DNA from: Natronomonas salinimetallica
GTDB taxonomy: Archaea; Halobacteriota; Halobacteria; Halobacteriales; Haloarculaceae
Assembly (NCBI RefSeq): GCF_013839515.1
Contig: NZ_JACDNQ010000001.1
Span: 62,001 to 126,000, forward strand
Reading direction: 5' to 3'
Length of the DNA stretch: 64,000 bases
Shown: positions 32,886 to 41,045 of the stretch, in pieces
How positions within the stretch are numbered: the first letter of the stretch is position 1
How the letters are laid out: every line of letters begins with the position of its first letter
Translations under genes and position numbers: made by a program
The notes under the pieces: model-generated
What the model was told of the DNA's origin: nothing
The model's database searches: none
The model's input: only the letters and a program-made list of their open reading frames with translations

Positions 32886-33440
32886 ATGCTCGATCGCGAA
32901 ACCGCCCGGGTGAACTACGAGACCAGCCAGGGGCTCATGGATCTCCTCCGGTACACGTGTGAGACGCTGAGCCTCGAGTTCGAGCGCTGGGACGAACAGT
33001 ACGTCTCCGGGCCGAGTCTGTACTTTCTCATCGTCGCCGACGTCGACTTCGTCGAGTACACCGACCCGCTCGGGGCGAACACGTGGCCGATCGACCGCTG
33101 TGGCGTCGTCTCCGAGTCGGCCGAGCCGTTCATCGACGTCGCCCGGGACGTGGCGTTCAGCTGCGACGGGGCCGTCGTCATCGCCGCGGACGGGACGATC
33201 CAAGAACAGATGGTCCGGGTCCGAAGCCCCAACGCCGAGGAGATGGACACCGACGAGGAGCTGTCCTACCCCGACTGGATGGGAACCAAACACCTGAGCG
33301 CCCTGGAGATATCCACCCGCGAGGAGGTGCTTTGGGCCGTCACGCTGAGCGAGGAGGACGGCCGCGTCACCTCGTTCGTGGACGGGACGTACAAGGACTA
33401 TCCACGGGAGGAGATCGGCGGACGGTGGCGGCCGACGTAG
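32886..33440 (+). CDS. dacZ: Diadenylate cyclase DacZ
   Basis: Makes cyclic di-AMP from two ATP. The 184-residue protein consists of a single DisA_N-type (DAC) domain: the DGA motif is in CDGAVVIAADG near residue 92 and the RHR-equivalent motif in GTKHLSALEIS near 131, with Lys and Leu in place of the two Arg of bacterial DisA, as I recall for the haloarchaeal DacZ type. There are no membrane helices and no regulatory domain. It follows proCBA on the same strand after 115 bp with its own TATA box. In haloarchaea c-di-AMP is linked to osmotic control, so the neighbourhood with proline synthesis is suggestive. Confidence 0.88.
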   Translation: MLDRETARVNYETSQGLMDLLRYTCETLSLEFERWDEQYVSGPSLYFLIVADVDFVEYTDPLGANTWPIDRCGVVSESAEPFIDVARDVAFSCDGAVVIAADGTIQEQMVRVRSPNAEEMDTDEELSYPDWMGTKHLSALEISTREEVLWAVTLSEEDGRVTSFVDGTYKDYPREEIGGRWRPT

Positions 33441-33549
33441 CCCGCACGGTATACGTATAAGGATCCCATCGAGCACAGTGAAACAGCAGTATCTATCCGG
33501 CCACTGGGAAATGGGTCAGTGCAGGATACGGAGGCTCCTTTGGGAGCCA

Positions 33550-34596
33550 TTAATCGACAGCAGCGTTGACCCCGGTGATTTCGAATCGCGCTCCCCCTTC
33601 CTGCCCTTCCGAAATACGAACGTCCCAACCGTGGGCATTCACAATTTGTTTGACGATAGATAACCCGAATCCGGTGCTGTCCTGGCTCTCTGAGTACCCC
33701 TCTTCGAAGACCTTCTCGCGTTTCTCCGGGGGAATACCGGGGCCGGTATCCGCTACGTAGAACCCATCCGACAGTGACCCGACCTCGACGGTCACGTCCT
33801 CACCGCCGTGTTCGATCGAATTGCGGAAGAGGTTTTCAAAGAGCTGACGAAGGCGGCTTCGGTCGGCCTCTACGGTCGACTCGACATCGATTGCGATTTC
33901 TGCTCCGGGCGTTTCGACCGTCTCCCAGCAGTCTTCGAGGAAATCAGCCAACTCGATAGTTTCCGTATCTTGGACGTCTTTGCCTCCCCTGGCGAGCGCT
34001 AACAGATCGTCGATCAAATCAAAGCTTCGATCGATCGCCTCGGCTGCGATCTCGAGATGATCGCTCTCACGATTTTCCCGGGCGATATTGATCCGACCTT
34101 GCGCTACGTTCAGCGGGTTGCGCAGGTCATGAGACACTACACTCGCAAATTTGTCGAGCTGCTGGTTCCGCCGTTTGAGTTTCTGTTCCGCTCGCTTTCT
34201 CTCGGAGATGTCCCACCAAGCGCCGAATACCTCCTGTTCTCCGTCCTCATTGGTACTCACTTGTTGCTCATCGTGCAACCAGCGATAGTTTCCGTGTTTA
34301 TCTTTGAACCTGTACTCCACGGTGATTCTGTCCGTGTCCTCATCTGTCAACAGCTTTTCTTCTTCTTCGAATAACTCTTGAGCATCTTCCGGATGTAGAT
34401 TCTCCTGAAAATGCTCCGGGGAACCCACAAAATACTCCGGCTCAAATCCCAACACGTTCTTAACGCTCTCACTAACGTAGGTCGTCACGGGATCTCCATC
34501 GCCGACCCTGTATGAATATATCACTGCCGGCGTTTGCGTTATGAGTGTGTTGAGTCGCTCTTCGCTCACGGTTAGTTCCTCAGCCTTTTCTCCCAT
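33550..34596 (-). CDS. PAS-domain sensor histidine kinase (kinase 1)
   Basis: A 348-residue soluble histidine kinase. A PAS/PAC domain spans about 12-135 (ending in GAWWDISERKRAE), followed by a HisKA dimerisation helix with the phospho-acceptor His in VVSHDLRNPLNVAQG near 152, and an HATPase_c domain with N-box LFENLFRNSIEHGG, G1 DTGPGIP and G2 STGFGLSIV. No membrane helix, so the signal is intracellular. The composition is visibly less GC-rich than the surrounding genes. It is first of three same-strand kinases; its upstream DNA is interrupted by the inverted-repeat-bounded segment described at 34729-38127. No cognate regulator is adjacent. Confidence 0.92.
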   Translation of the reverse strand: MGEKAEELTVSEERLNTLITQTPAVIYSYRVGDGDPVTTYVSESVKNVLGFEPEYFVGSPEHFQENLHPEDAQELFEEEEKLLTDEDTDRITVEYRFKDKHGNYRWLHDEQQVSTNEDGEQEVFGAWWDISERKRAEQKLKRRNQQLDKFASVVSHDLRNPLNVAQGRINIARENRESDHLEIAAEAIDRSFDLIDDLLALARGGKDVQDTETIELADFLEDCWETVETPGAEIAIDVESTVEADRSRLRQLFENLFRNSIEHGGEDVTVEVGSLSDGFYVADTGPGIPPEKREKVFEEGYSESQDSTGFGLSIVKQIVNAHGWDVRISEGQEGGARFEITGVNAAVD

Positions 34597-34720
34597 TTTA
34601 TTTCGATTGTCGAAGAGGACAGTGCTTAAGTTTTCCCGCAGGGGATACGACGGTTGCTGAATTTGCGCCCTCTATGTTACATGCCATCTGATGCCACTAT
34701 CATATAGCCGATCGCTGTTT

Positions 34721-34752
34721 CACGGAGTGAGGGTGTCATAGAAGACTTCTCA
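34721..34752. repeat. Left target duplication and terminal inverted repeat
   Basis: CACGGAGT (34721-34728) followed directly by the left terminal repeat 34729-34752, which starts GAGGGTGTCATAGAA. Confidence 0.7.
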
Positions 34753-37700
34753 CACCAAACAGAAATCGCTGAGCTCAGGGGACGCACATACCGCGACGAG
34801 TGACAACCCATCTGGAATCCATCAGAAATCCGGTGAACATGCAGAGGCTGGGTTCAGCAGTACGAACCGGTAGGGGCGTCAATCTGTGGCCGCCGTCTCC
34901 GTGAGTGGAAGGTTGACGACGAACACGCTTCCTTCGGGATCGTTATCTTCGACCCAAACAGCGCCACCGTACTGCTCGACGAGCGTCCGGATCAGATAGA
35001 GGCCGAGCCCGGTTCCTGGGCTGTCAAGGCCTTTTTCGCCCTTCCCGAAGATCGTCTCTTTTTGAGTATCGGGAATGCCGGGACCGTTGTCTGCGACCCT
35101 GACAGTTATGATCTCTTCATCAATCCTCGTCGAAATCCGCACCTCGGGTCTCTGCTTGTCGTTGTGGACCACCGCGTTCTGCAGGAGGTTCCGAAACACC
35201 GCTTCAAGCAACTCGTTCCCCCGAACGTGAGCCCTCGGAATCTGGCCATCGATGGTGACCATCGCCGTATCGAACTTCGCGCAGACGTTCTCAACCACTG
35301 GGTTGAGACACTGATCCAGCCTGACAGGCTCGATATCTTCTTCAGTACTCAGCATGATATCGGAGAGATCACGGGCCGTCTTTGTCAACTCAGTTGCACT
35401 TTCGGTTGCGTCCTGGATCGCCTCTAAGTCCTCTTTCCCAGCTTCTTCGACGTGTTTTTTGAGCAGTTCCGCTCGACCACTAACTACGGCCATATCGTTG
35501 CGAATATCGTGACGCACGACCTGATTGAGCACCTCGAGATTGTCCCTTTGGTCTTCGATTTTTTGCTCGTATTCCTTTTGTTTGGTGGTGTCTTGGCCGA
35601 CAGCGACGAACTTCTGTGGTTGTCCGTCTTCGTCGGTGATCGGCGAGATCGTCTGATTGAGAACGATTCCCTCGCCGTCGGCTCCTTCCTCGAACATTTC
35701 GTCGGCCCATTGCTCGCCCGAGAGGATCGTCTCCCAGAGCTCTCCGTAATACCCGTCGCCATATTCGCCTGATTTGAGGATGCTCGGATCTTGGCCCACG
35801 GCTTCGGATTCGCTAAACCCAGTGATCTCTTCGAATGCCGGATTGACGTACTCGATAGTCCCTTCAGTATCGGTGATATACACTATGTGAGCGGTCTGTT
35901 CGACGGCTTTCCGGAATTGTCGGAGTTTCCGCTCACGTTGTTTCTGTTCGTCGATGTCGATGTGAATTCCCACGGCACGAACCGGTTTGCCGTCTGCATC
36001 CCGTTCGACAGTCTTACCGACATCACGAATCCACTTCCAGTCGCCGTTGGCAGTCTGTAGCCGGTTTTCGGTGTCGTAGTAGTCGGTCTCGCCCGTGATG
36101 TGACTGTCTATGGCCGCCTCTGTATCAGCGACGTCATCGGGATGGACGCGCTTTTCCCAGGCGTTGAGGTGTGACTCGATCTCATCAAGCGAGTAGCCAA
36201 GCATCTGGGCCCACTGCTCGTTGAACTCCACCTCGTCGGTGGTCATATCCCAGTCCCAGACACCCAGTTCAGCGCCGTCGACCGCAAGTTCGAGTCGTTC
36301 CTTGAGGTGCTTAATTTCCTCTTCTCGCTCTTTGCGCTCGGTGGTGTCACGAACGACACAGATGAGACCACCGTTGTCAGTCTCAGTCAGCGATAGGTCC
36401 TGGTGGAAGGTTTCACCATTCTTTCGTCTCCCCGTGGCTTCACCACGCCATTTTCCCCGATCTTCGAGGGCTCTGAGGACCTCGCTCTCGAGCCGCTCAA
36501 CCTCATCGTCCTCATAAAATATCCGCCACGTATTCCCGACCAGTGCTTCGGGATCATCGTATCCGTAGATGTCCGCGTGGGCCTGATTTAAATAGATCAA
36601 TTCGTTGTTTTCGTTGAGGATCGACATCCCGTCCATCGATGCGTCCATCGCTTCCGCCCGTTCAAGCACCGACTGGGCGCGCTTGCGATCGGTAATGTCG
36701 ACGTATAGTGCGTGGGTTCCGACAACGTCGCCTTCGTTATTCCGGCGCGGCGTCGCCTGAAGGAGCGTGACTAATCGCTTATCGTCGGCTGTGATAAACT
36801 CACGCTCTTTGGGTGTGAACTCGCCGTCGAGGGATCGCTGATACCCGCCTTTATCCAACAGTCGTTCAGTAGATGTTTCGGTGTATACGTTTGCAAGTGG
36901 TTGTTCCTGAAGCTCCTCTCGTGAGTAGCCCAGTTTGTCGGCGAATCGCTGATTGCAGTCCTCGATGATCGGCTCGCCATTCGCCTCACGCGTGAAGGCC
37001 ATCATTACCGGTGCGTTCTCGAACAATTCTTGATACTGAGAGTCATACTGGTCTCGGACCTGAATGTGATAGTGCGCATGCGCGATGGTGTCGCTGAGGT
37101 CTTCGAGCAGTGACTGTTCGTCAGCATCGAACGCGTTTGGATAGGTAGCGTAAACGTTCAACACGCCATAGAGGGTTCCGTCGTGCTCGATTGGGATCGC
37201 TGCACTCGATTGATAGCTCCGTTCGAGCGCCGCCTCGCGCCACGGATCGTAGGTTGGATCCGCCGAAATATCTTGCACCACTTGACTCGTGCGAGTTCTA
37301 ACGGCCTGTCCTGTTGGTCCCTGCCCCGTTGTACTGTCATCGACGGTGATCTCGGCGGTATCGAGATAGCCTGCTTCTTCTCCAGCCGACGCTCTGGGAG
37401 TCACATGTGCAGTGTCAGCATCGAGACCGCCGATCCAGGCGAATACGTAGGGGTCAGCGTCGATGAGCCGTTCACAGACGCTGGCCTCGATGTCATCGCG
37501 TGTTCTGGCCTGGACGAGATCAGACTGAATATCTCTGACGAGGGCGGCAATGCGTTTGAGGTCGCTTGCTCGTTGCTGTTCGGTTGCAGCGGTGATTCGC
37601 TGTGCGAGAAATGCGAAATGTTCGGTCGAGCTGCCTTTCGGGACGTAATCAGTGCTCCCCGCAGAGAGTGCCTCGGGTACGACCGTCTCAAGGTCCTCGT

Positions 37701-38127
37701 TGGTGTAGAAAATAAACGGTAGGCTGGGATACTCCTTGCGGACAGCCTCAAGAAAGCTAAGTCCATCGCGGCCAGGCATGTCGTATTCGGAGACGATGCA
37801 GTCAATGTCGTGATTGTTTAAAAGCGTCAGTCCCTCGTTGGGGGTGGTTGCGGTATAAAAAGTGATCCGGTCGTCGCTATGTCTCGGAAGCTCAGTGGCC
37901 GTGCTATCGAACGCCGGTTCATTATCGACATAGAGAACGTGTATTCTATCGTTCGTTGTGGTCACAACTTCTCCAATTGATTGATCCGAACCAAACATTT
38001 AAGTAAATACCGGTACATCCCATGCCGGATACGCGCCTTCAGTCCTACATACCATTTCAAATATAATCCTAATCTAGTATTTTCTCCACCGGTCAGTTCA
38101 CCATGATAAGAGTTCTATGACACCCTC
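34729..38127. mobile_element. Candidate mobile insertion cassette carrying a sensor kinase
   Basis: A 3.4-kb segment bounded by inverted repeats. The outer 15 bp GAGGGTGTCATAGAA (34729-34743) is repeated exactly in reverse at 38113-38127, and the match extends to 21 of 24 bp (34729-34752 against 38104-38127). CACGGAGT abuts the left end (34721-34728) and recurs in the same orientation after one extra T at the right end (38129-38136), as a target-site duplication would. The only gene inside is the 1039-residue kinase; I see no transposase or transposase fragment. This fits the known class of mobile insertion cassettes, moved in trans by a related insertion sequence. Confidence 0.65.
34879..37998 (-). 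CDS. Large hybrid-type sensor kinase: degenerate receiver, GAF, four PAS, histidine kinase (kinase 3)
   Basis: A 1039-residue soluble sensor. Order: receiver-like domain (18-135), GAF (about 145-310), four PAS/PAC domains (about 325-440, 445-560, 565-690, 695-820), HisKA with VVRHDIRNDMAVVSG near 835, and HATPase_c with LLQNAVVHN, DNGPGIP and GTGLGLYLI. In the receiver the phospho-accepting Asp position is Glu71 (SEYDMPGRDG, where CheY has D-x-x-MP), and the acidic pair reads VDNEP, so it probably cannot be phosphorylated normally. It is the sole gene of the inverted-repeat-bounded segment. An in-frame GTG at 37965 is an alternative start that suits a TATA-like stretch at 38000-38012. Confidence 0.92.
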   Translation of the reverse strand: MFGSDQSIGEVVTTTNDRIHVLYVDNEPAFDSTATELPRHSDDRITFYTATTPNEGLTLLNNHDIDCIVSEYDMPGRDGLSFLEAVRKEYPSLPFIFYTNEDLETVVPEALSAGSTDYVPKGSSTEHFAFLAQRITAATEQQRASDLKRIAALVRDIQSDLVQARTRDDIEASVCERLIDADPYVFAWIGGLDADTAHVTPRASAGEEAGYLDTAEITVDDSTTGQGPTGQAVRTRTSQVVQDISADPTYDPWREAALERSYQSSAAIPIEHDGTLYGVLNVYATYPNAFDADEQSLLEDLSDTIAHAHYHIQVRDQYDSQYQELFENAPVMMAFTREANGEPIIEDCNQRFADKLGYSREELQEQPLANVYTETSTERLLDKGGYQRSLDGEFTPKEREFITADDKRLVTLLQATPRRNNEGDVVGTHALYVDITDRKRAQSVLERAEAMDASMDGMSILNENNELIYLNQAHADIYGYDDPEALVGNTWRIFYEDDEVERLESEVLRALEDRGKWRGEATGRRKNGETFHQDLSLTETDNGGLICVVRDTTERKEREEEIKHLKERLELAVDGAELGVWDWDMTTDEVEFNEQWAQMLGYSLDEIESHLNAWEKRVHPDDVADTEAAIDSHITGETDYYDTENRLQTANGDWKWIRDVGKTVERDADGKPVRAVGIHIDIDEQKQRERKLRQFRKAVEQTAHIVYITDTEGTIEYVNPAFEEITGFSESEAVGQDPSILKSGEYGDGYYGELWETILSGEQWADEMFEEGADGEGIVLNQTISPITDEDGQPQKFVAVGQDTTKQKEYEQKIEDQRDNLEVLNQVVRHDIRNDMAVVSGRAELLKKHVEEAGKEDLEAIQDATESATELTKTARDLSDIMLSTEEDIEPVRLDQCLNPVVENVCAKFDTAMVTIDGQIPRAHVRGNELLEAVFRNLLQNAVVHNDKQRPEVRISTRIDEEIITVRVADNGPGIPDTQKETIFGKGEKGLDSPGTGLGLYLIRTLVEQYGGAVWVEDNDPEGSVFVVNLPLTETAATD

Positions 38128-38136
38128 TCACGGAGT
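38104..38136. repeat. Right terminal inverted repeat and target duplication
   Basis: Right terminal repeat 38104-38127 ending TTCTATGACACCCTC, one extra T, then CACGGAGT at 38129-38136. Confidence 0.7.
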
Positions 38137-38139
38137 AGT

Positions 38140-38219
38140 TATAGCAGAGATCGGAAGACAGTACACACTCGACCGCACGGCGGCAGTGCGATCGATGTGT
38201 ACGTAGTTGCGATGTTCAC
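38140..38219. repeat. 80-bp direct repeat, copy 1, with long hairpin
   Basis: Matches 40171-40250 at 76 of 80 positions. Contains a nearly perfect hairpin at 38161-38202: GTACACACTCGACCGCAC pairs with GTGCGATCGATGTGTAC across the loop GGCGGCA, with one mismatch and one bulge. It begins 3 bp after the right target-site copy of the cassette. The rest of 37999-38352 holds the cassette's right end and a second hairpin, but no gene. Confidence 0.9.
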
Positions 38220-38271
38220 AACTGGTCTCGTTCATACTCATACTGACGGACAAAAGAATGTACACACGACT

Positions 38272-38317
38272 CACGAGTGATCCGCCGTTCGCTCCGTCGA
38301 ACGGTGTGATCCTCGTG
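38272..38317 (-). terminator. Nested hairpin downstream of the LOV kinase gene
   Basis: CCGTTCG (38285-38291) pairs with CGAACGG (38298-38304) around CTCCGT, and the flanks CACGAG-T-GATC and GATCCTCGTG pair outside it. It lies 36-81 bp past the stop of the kinase gene. A terminator role is inferred from place and stability; no T-rich run follows directly. Confidence 0.45.
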
Positions 38318-38352
38318 CGTCGGTTTCATTTGATTTCGTCCACCAGTATCAC

Positions 38353-40116
38353 TCAAGAGCCGCTATCCGCCACAATGCTTTGATCTACACTCGGCAATTG
38401 AAACGTCACCACGCTTCCTCGTGGGTCGTTATCACTAATCGTTAACTCTCCACCAAGCGTCGTTATCACCCACTCCATCATCCATAATCCAATACCGAGG
38501 CTGTGCTGGAGCGGCGTCTCCTCTCCCGATTCGATCACGCGCCGCTCGAGATCCGGAATCCTGGGGCCGTTGTCAGCTACCGATATGTACACGTAGTCGG
38601 CATCTGATTCCCGGTCAACCGTAATCGAAACGTCTGGCGATGACTGATCACTGTGTTTGACTGCATTCTCGACAGCCTCATCTATGGCTTGCTCGAGTAA
38701 ATCTGCGTTTCGAACGTAAATCGTCCCGTCACCATCGATCGATGCAGTGATTTCCGCGTCTGCGTACTGATTCTGATACGCTTCGAAAAGCGTCTCAACA
38801 TTGAGACGATTCCACGTCTGGTCGTCGTCGGTCATGGCAAAAACTTCGCGGATGCCGTCCACCGTCTCCGCGATCTTCTGCATCGATGTTGCTTGATCCC
38901 GAATCGCTTCGATTGACGCCTGTCGGGATTCTTCGTCCATCTTATCAGATGCTAACAGTTTTGCGTGTCCGTCAATCACGCTCACGGAGTTTCGCAAATT
39001 GTGCCGCACCACTCGATTAAGCACATCAAGCGTCTGTTTCGTGAGCAGGTTCTCGCCAATGTCCTGCATGATCGCCACGAACTGCGTTGTGTTCCCGTCC
39101 TTGCCCGTGGCAGGGATGATCTTCTGTGTGACCTCAAAGAGCTCCCCCTGTTTGGTCTGATTCGTCAGCTCCGCTTCCCACACGTCGCCGGCCGTGATTT
39201 GCTCCCACAGGTCCGCATAAAACGCGTCGTCTTGTTGCCCGGATTTGAGTATGGATGGATTGCGCCCGTTTGCCTCGGTAGCCGTATACCCGGTCATCTG
39301 CTCGAAGGCAGGATTGACATACTGTATCGTCCCGTCCGGGTCGGTTATGAAAATGGCTTCCTCAGACCCTTCAGCCTGCTTCTTAAACAGCGTGAGATCC
39401 TGTTCGAATCGCTTTTCGGTGGTCACATCCTTCTGATAGCCGAGGTAGTTGGTGACGGTCCCTGACCCGGATCGGATCGGAACGATCGTCACACGATTCC
39501 AGAACATCGTGCCGTCGCTCCGGTAATTCCGGAGTTTGACAGTCACGGGCTCTTCGGCTTCGATGGCGGCTCGCATCTGCGCAACCGGCTTCTCGCGTGT
39601 TGACTCGCCCTGGAGAAATCGACAGTTTTGCCCGAGGATCTCGTCACGGGGATAGCCGGTGAGTTCGCAAAACCCGTCATTGACGTAAATGAGCGGGTTA
39701 TCGGGTTGGGATGGATCTGAAATCGAGATGCCAAACGGGGCTTCGTCCATCGCTGCACTGCGGAGCAGACGTCCAACCGTAGAATCAGGCTCAACAATCG
39801 GGAGTACGGAGGCCTGAACCTGTTGAGTGTTATCCCACCGCATCAGTGAATTCACGATGATAACCCGCTGAGACTGATCGGCAGGCATCTGTAGCTCCAC
39901 GGCAAGCCCCAATACCGGTTCGTCTTCATTTTCGATTCGAGTCACTTGCTCGCGGAGCTCGGAGTGATACTCCGGTATCACAACGTCCGTCAATGACCGC
40001 CCGACAAGCTGTTCTTGAGACTCTACTCCAAGGAGTGTACAGAACACGGGATCCGCATACGTAATCCTCATACCGGAGTGGATAACAAATGAGTCCGGGA
40101 TGCCTTTAGATGTCAT
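38353..40116 (-). CDS. LOV-domain sensor histidine kinase, probable blue-light receptor (kinase 2)
   Basis: A 587-residue soluble kinase: PAS (1-110), LOV (118-238), PAS (245-355), HisKA (VVRHNLRNSVSV, His372) and HATPase_c. The LOV core has GQNCRFLQG with the adduct-forming Cys165, Asn197 in LRNYRS, Asn207 in FWNR and Gln228 in LGYQKD. Distances from the Cys (32, 42, 63) equal those of the FMN-contacting residues of plant phototropin-type LOV2. The protein should therefore bind flavin and signal in blue light. Its second PAS and kinase core resemble those of kinase 3. An 80-bp hairpin repeat is 55 bp upstream of its start; the gene is less GC-rich than the chromosome. Confidence 0.92.
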   Translation of the reverse strand: MTSKGIPDSFVIHSGMRITYADPVFCTLLGVESQEQLVGRSLTDVVIPEYHSELREQVTRIENEDEPVLGLAVELQMPADQSQRVIIVNSLMRWDNTQQVQASVLPIVEPDSTVGRLLRSAAMDEAPFGISISDPSQPDNPLIYVNDGFCELTGYPRDEILGQNCRFLQGESTREKPVAQMRAAIEAEEPVTVKLRNYRSDGTMFWNRVTIVPIRSGSGTVTNYLGYQKDVTTEKRFEQDLTLFKKQAEGSEEAIFITDPDGTIQYVNPAFEQMTGYTATEANGRNPSILKSGQQDDAFYADLWEQITAGDVWEAELTNQTKQGELFEVTQKIIPATGKDGNTTQFVAIMQDIGENLLTKQTLDVLNRVVRHNLRNSVSVIDGHAKLLASDKMDEESRQASIEAIRDQATSMQKIAETVDGIREVFAMTDDDQTWNRLNVETLFEAYQNQYADAEITASIDGDGTIYVRNADLLEQAIDEAVENAVKHSDQSSPDVSITVDRESDADYVYISVADNGPRIPDLERRVIESGEETPLQHSLGIGLWMMEWVITTLGGELTISDNDPRGSVVTFQLPSVDQSIVADSGS

Positions 40117-40170
40117 AATTAACCCTTGACCGTATTAGATAGAAAAGTTTGGGGCCAGATTCATCGAAGA

Positions 40171-40250
40171 TATAGTAGAGATCGGAAGACAATACACACT
40201 CGACCGCACGGCGGCAGTGCGATCGATGTGTACATAGTTGCGATGTTTAC
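40171..40250. repeat. 80-bp direct repeat, copy 2, upstream of the LOV kinase
   Basis: 76 of 80 bases equal to 38140-38219; the four differences are at the edges of or outside the hairpin stem. Starts 55 bp upstream of the LOV kinase ATG and 36 bp before the rlmE stop. Confidence 0.9.
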
Positions 40251-40286
40251 TATAGTTCACGTACGAGAACACATAGCACACCCGGG

Positions 40287-41045
40287 CTACTCTACGGTCT
40301 CGCCGAACCCGAACCGCGGTTTGACGTCCGTTATCTCGATCTCGACCTCCTCGCCCGGTTCGGCGTCGGCGACGAACAGCGTGTATCCTTCGACCTTTGC
40401 GATCCCGTCGCCCTCGCGGCCGACGTCCTCGATTTCGACCTCGACGCGGTCGCCCTCCCTGACCGGGGCGGTCAGCCGCCCCTTCGCGACCATATACAGC
40501 TCCGAGGAGGAGTCCCGCGAGGCGGCGGGGTGGATCGTCCGGACGTACTCGAACTCCCGGTCGATATCGGCCCGCAGTTCGTCGGTGTCTGGGCCTTCGA
40601 ACACCTTCGCGACGAAGTCGCCGCCGGGAGCGAGCAGTTCGAGCGACGTCTCGAAGGCGGTTCGGGCGAGATACACCGACCGAGCGTGATCCAGCGAGTA
40701 CTCGCCGGTCATGTTCGGGGCCATATCGGAGATCACGACGTCGGCCTCGCCGACGGCCGCCGTGATCCGCTCGCGGGTGTCGGCCTCGGTCATGTCACCC
40801 CGGATCGTCTCGACGCCGTCGATCGGTTTGATCCGCTGGAGGTCGACACCGACCACGGTGCCGCCCTCGCCCGCGAGTTCGTTTGCGACCTGGAGCCATC
40901 CGCCGGGGGCGGCCCCGAGATCGACGACGGTATCGCCGTCGCTTATAAGCCCCGCGTCCTCGTCGAGCTGTTTGAGTTTGTAGGCGGCCCGCGATCGGTA
41001 GCCCTGCTGTTTGGCCCGGTTGTAGTAGTCGTCCTTCCGCGTCAT
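40287..41045 (-). CDS. rlmE: 23S rRNA (uridine-2'-O)-methyltransferase with TRAM domain (RlmE/FtsJ type)
   Basis: SAM-dependent 2'-O-methyltransferase of the FtsJ/RrmJ family, 252 residues. YRSRAAYKLKQLDE at 17-30 contains the first catalytic Lys, VVDLGAAPGGWLQVA near 43 is SAM motif I, VISDMAPNMTGEYSLDH near 107 has the catalytic Asp, and FVAKVFEGPD near 150 the second Lys. Residues 190-252 form a TRAM domain, a haloarchaeal addition that helps bind RNA. Start is ATG 41045 (MTRKDDYYNRA). GC content returns to chromosomal level, marking the edge of the kinase island. Confidence 0.94.
   Translation of the reverse strand: MTRKDDYYNRAKQQGYRSRAAYKLKQLDEDAGLISDGDTVVDLGAAPGGWLQVANELAGEGGTVVGVDLQRIKPIDGVETIRGDMTEADTRERITAAVGEADVVISDMAPNMTGEYSLDHARSVYLARTAFETSLELLAPGGDFVAKVFEGPDTDELRADIDREFEYVRTIHPAASRDSSSELYMVAKGRLTAPVREGDRVEVEIEDVGREGDGIAKVEGYTLFVADAEPGEEVEIEITDVKPRFGFGETVE

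Follow-up and report, generated by a model that had tools for sequence, protein, structure and literature searches.

The 3,399-bp segment between positions 34729 and 38127 of the window (the whole 64,000-nucleotide stretch of Natronomonas salinimetallica DNA analysed here) is best explained, with a probability of about 0.9, as an ISH11-type element of the IS5 family that is not autonomous: a mobile insertion cassette (MIC) in which a complete sensor-kinase gene replaces the transposase and which most likely arrived by transposition. The cassette is an insertion inside an island of three kinase genes, and its parts, together with the two flanking kinases, are the following:

33550-34596, minus strand: HK1, flanking PAS-HisKA-HATPase kinase of 348 aa, outside the cassette, the insertion point lying some 130 bp from its start
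34720-34728, no strand: left target-site duplication TCACGGAGT, 9 bp, same as 38128-38136
34729-38127, no strand: whole cassette, transposase-less
34729-34752, plus strand: left terminal inverted repeat, ISH11-type, outer 15 bp GAGGGTGTCATAGAA
34879-37998, minus strand: passenger sensor kinase, 1039 aa, one complete ORF, the only gene inside
37999-38127, minus strand: kinase upstream region within the cassette, with a TATA-like TTATATTT recognised by inspection
38104-38127, minus strand: right terminal inverted repeat
38128-38136, no strand: right target-site duplication TCACGGAGT
38353-40116, minus strand: HK3, flanking kinase with three PAS domains, 587 aa, outside the cassette

The inverted repeats match at 21 of 24 positions, with the outer 15 bp exact, as an earlier note on this DNA had read them, and are bracketed on both sides by a perfect 9-bp direct repeat; the note had rightly seen a repeat but described it as 8 bp with "one extra T", the ninth base on the left having been missed. 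With up to three mismatches allowed, GAGGGTGTCATAGAA is expected about 0.8 times per shuffled 64-kb window, and the window holds two exact inverted copies; genome-wide, at up to two mismatches, 22 matches were found vs. 2 for the reversed control pattern. Exact inverted pairs of any 15-mer with an outer direct repeat of at least 6 bp occurred once in the window and once in 60 shuffled windows combined. The pattern formed by the ends and the duplication is real. The lower GC content to which the same note pointed holds in comparison with the window (0.543 vs. 0.662) but is not distinctive of the cassette: the adjoining flanks are as AT-rich (0.529 on each side), so that low GC does not mark its boundaries.

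Judged by their sequence, the ends of the cassette are those of ISH11. In genomes of the family, pairs of the same ends 1,063-1,069 bp apart enclose a DDE_Tnp_1 transposase of about 330 aa, and such full ISH11-type copies are common; a representative one shows 91% identity to ISH11 of pNRC100, which is annotated as "IS5-like element ISH11 family transposase". The pNRC100 copy measures 1,068 bp, carries the same 15 bp at its ends and is flanked by an 8-bp duplication. On the left, the first 28 bp of the cassette are a 96% match to the terminus of a complete ISH11-type IS. The end GAGSGTGTCATAGAA is present in 81 of the 146 family genomes, with no occurrence of the reversed-pattern controls. Perfect outer duplications of at least 6 bp flank 23 of 42 sampled ISH11-type elements (a sample partly picked for unusual lengths, whose proportions are not population estimates) and none of 1,722 mismatched left/right flank pairs; these duplications are not due to chance. 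ISH11 insertions specific to single strains, with duplications of 6, 8 and 9 bp, have been described in a comparison of Halobacterium strains (PMC10264941). One ISH11-type copy (L137:368-2593) is broken by a transposase gene that, by eye, is IS630-like. Among viral contigs, 65 contain a single end match each, never a pair, a level in line with chance.

The cassette resembles ISH11 (IS5 family), ISHma6, ISNpe17 and ISHla6 in the 15-bp ends, in the conserved subterminal TT and CA positions and in the 6-9-bp duplications. However, ISH11 is about 1.07 kb long and encodes a transposase, whereas the cassette is 3.4 kb long and has a sensor kinase inside; since it has ISH11-type 15-bp ends and no DDE transposase of its own, it is to be called ISH11-ended and not an IS. 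With the MICs of bacteria (MIC231 of Bacillus cereus; mic-qnrS2 of Aeromonas, PMC2600179) it has in common the IS-type inverted repeats, the target-site duplication and a passenger gene where the transposase would be, which are among the defining features of a MIC, while it differs from them in its archaeal host, in its ISH11 ends, in its larger passenger and in the varied passengers found in related genomes. A 405-bp ISH11-type MITE, probably the MITEHsal2 of PMC10264941 (length being the one basis for this link), is like the cassette in its ends and in the missing transposase but holds no passenger gene, and only about 24-28 terminal bp are common to the two. MITE was rejected as a class for the cassette, which with 3399 bp and a 1039-aa gene is neither short nor non-coding, and so was compound transposon, as there are single ends only and no full IS on either side. 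The ISH2/ISH8 pair of Halobacterium sets the precedent of a full IS moving a haloarchaeal element that is not autonomous (PMC10264941), by action in trans, ISH2 differing from the cassette in that it belongs to another IS family and is a MITE without a gene.

The passenger is a single gene with no transposase beside it, as the earlier note had stated, and encodes a receiver domain (residues 21-126), a GAF domain (165-308), at least three PAS domains, HisKA (825-881) and HATPase_c (930-1033). Because the ORF, the upstream region (about 130 bp 5' of the kinase start fall inside the cassette) and all domains lie between the ends, insertion probably leaves the gene functional; its expression would start from a promoter within the cassette, and the carried kinase might confer a selective benefit. 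The nearest relatives of the kinase are haloarchaeal, with 67% identity over partial length in a Halorubrum MAG and 61% identity on a plasmid of Halorubrum sp. BOL3-1, where no bracketing ISH11 cassette was found. A paralog in the same genome, on contig C3, has 56% amino acid identity and no ISH11 ends; between it and the passenger, dN is about 0.35 and dS about 1.4, values consistent with purifying selection. An ISH11-type cassette surrounds the kinase relatives at none of the 70 loci examined, nor was a second copy of the window kinase between ISH11 ends found among the loci searched.

An ISH11 transposase supplied in trans would recognise the cassette ends and join them to target DNA whose two strands are cut 9 bp apart; that ISH11 is the cognate IS is read from the ends only. 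A partner IS elsewhere in the genome, as the earlier note proposed, did not emerge: in the 30-contig draft no complete ISH11 was found, the one ISH11 sequence there being a 252-bp remnant of the left end at C28:181626, and the complete element may be missing from the assembly or absent from the organism. A MIC usually shares its genome with an intact cognate IS, even if this is not strictly required. Further inverted pairs of the 15-mer lie on C7 (1,172 bp) and on C3, C12, C23 and C29 (405 bp each); the latter are ISH11-type MITEs without transposase, flanked by duplications of 6-8 bp. The C7 pair (C7:13853-15024) is a second cassette, with a 6-bp duplication and a membrane protein unrelated to the kinase and without a Pfam match, and has 36 of 42 bp in common with the window cassette at the left end. 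When its empty site was sought in the genus, the flanking genes were matched with no match across the junction, and its passenger had no match in the plasmid search.

A narrower form of the cassette explanation, not a true alternative, is that the element transposed once and is now stranded in a genome without functional ISH11 transposase. That the assembly shows one copy of the cassette and the 252-bp remnant speaks for it, but repeated IS copies usually fall in the gaps of a 30-contig draft, and neither end of the cassette shows a change in its outermost 15 bp, nor the duplication a mutation; we place this reading somewhat short of even odds. The perfect duplication and the exact 15-bp ends argue for a fairly recent insertion.

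Where that insertion took place is a separate matter. The island (window 33440-40290), made up of three collinear, AT-rich kinase genes, lies between proA/duf33k and rlmE and is absent from relatives within the genus; in one of these (G121), proA, duf33k, rlmE and SLC6 sit side by side without any kinase gene in between. It is possible, though rather doubtful, that the three-kinase island arrived as one block already holding the cassette, transposition having occurred in another genome or replicon, instead of entering after the island had arrived; the absence of the whole 33.4-40.3 kb island from G121 and its uniform AT-richness speak for this. Such a course bears only on when and where the insertion happened and does not conflict with the cassette explanation. 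The empty site that the earlier note had suggested as a check was not found in the 146 family genomes, where only dispersed repeats matched, because the surrounding island is private. With no empty site, no second copy and no bracketed relative among the 70, that note's claim that the cassette spreads a sensory kinase was not sustained, nor was the one concerning a partner IS, while the transposase-less IS-ended cassette with a passenger stands, with its ends now identified as ISH11 and similar gene cassettes recurring in haloarchaea; as a whole, its interpretation is partly supported.

A dispersed palindromic repeat of about 80-87 bp (TATAGTAGAGATCGGAAGACA...GTTCACTATAG) occurs in the island at 38140-38219 (plus strand) and at about 40180-40262. 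The first copy starts 3 bp outside the right duplication and is a neighbour, not a part, of the cassette. The genome has at least 40 copies, mostly 90-96% identical, and related copies occur in other family genomes; Rfam gave no match for the repeat and nothing near the cassette. One of the ISH11-type 405-bp MITEs (C3:95686-96090; L024:2687-3091) lies inside one copy of this repeat, with the 7-bp duplication ATCGGAA.

That two independent ISH11 or MITE ends bracket a resident kinase of the AT-rich island by coincidence is very improbable: the neighbours likewise encode kinases and have the same GC, and kinase relatives elsewhere lie outside cassettes, but the 9-bp repeat beyond the outer ends is perfect, when even 6 bp is seen in none of the 1,722 mismatched flank pairs, and each side has a single end only and no whole MITE.

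The non-autonomous ISH11-type element is not isolated: gene-bearing ISH11-ended cassettes number 15 in 11 genomes, the window element included, with one or two genes each, and 11 of the 15 have perfect duplications of 6-9 bp. Besides the kinase and the C7 membrane protein, the passengers include a membrane protein with DUF7344 (G025, 6-bp duplication), an HSDR_N-type protein with a membrane protein (G066, 7 bp), two different GNAT acetyltransferases (G014, 8 bp; G044, 7 bp) and a metallophosphoesterase (G002, 7 bp, one end degraded). Four cassettes of G141, with duplications of 7-9 bp, encode one small membrane protein and three lipoprotein-like proteins, the latter called from a lipobox read by eye and one of the three also having a nested IS. 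Perfect duplications are lacking from the cassettes with a MazG-like protein (G040) and with DUF7344 (G094), and no duplication was found around those with a lipoprotein-like protein (G107) and a DUF7344-like protein under the Pfam cut-off (G012). L375 (in G077), where similar ends are paired over 1,774 bp, was not counted, as it looked like an unrelated IS carrying its own transposase. At the insertion point of the G025 cassette, paralogous stretches of the same genome (79% and 69% identity) run through without the element.

Two of the G141 cassettes, 515 kb apart (L251:792-2435 and L252:747-1321), have ends of 76 bp and 64 bp that are 100% identical, with no detectable similarity between the ends, where unrelated lipoprotein-like genes lie; in the G025, G012, G066 and G107 cassettes, end modules of 53-81 bp are common in pairs at 76-80% identity. 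Passenger exchange is one reading of the shared modules, independent capture by the same ends another. Tentatively, at nearly even odds, ISH11 ends could form a standing gene-cassette system of haloarchaea, in which short end modules acquire individual host genes, swap them and spread them, ISH11 providing the mobilisation in trans; the genes so carried would have many different functions (signalling, acetyltransferase, nuclease-like, regulator, lipoprotein), and the identical-end pair of G141 would be a product of passenger exchange.

ISH11 thus appears to be a carrier of ordinary genes in haloarchaea. Most of the mobile insertion cassettes known so far come from a small number of bacteria. 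MICs and ISH11 are each known, and no haloarchaeal gene-bearing ISH11 cassette was found in the open-access literature; older subscription work, e.g. archaeal IS reviews, lies outside this scope, and priority is not certain. Within the literature covered, an ISH11-ended gene cassette is known in kind and new in its host group and range of passengers. It is plausible that ISH11 cassettes move signalling genes between haloarchaea; for the window kinase, such spread is something we infer. Mobilisation in trans is open to testing in Halobacterium, where strain-specific ISH11 insertions have been published (PMC10264941). If haloarchaea hold a diverse set of ISH11-ended cassettes, single genes, whole sensor kinases included, would be movable without plasmids, viruses or integrons, and many private genes of haloarchaeal genomes could be findable from the ends alone.
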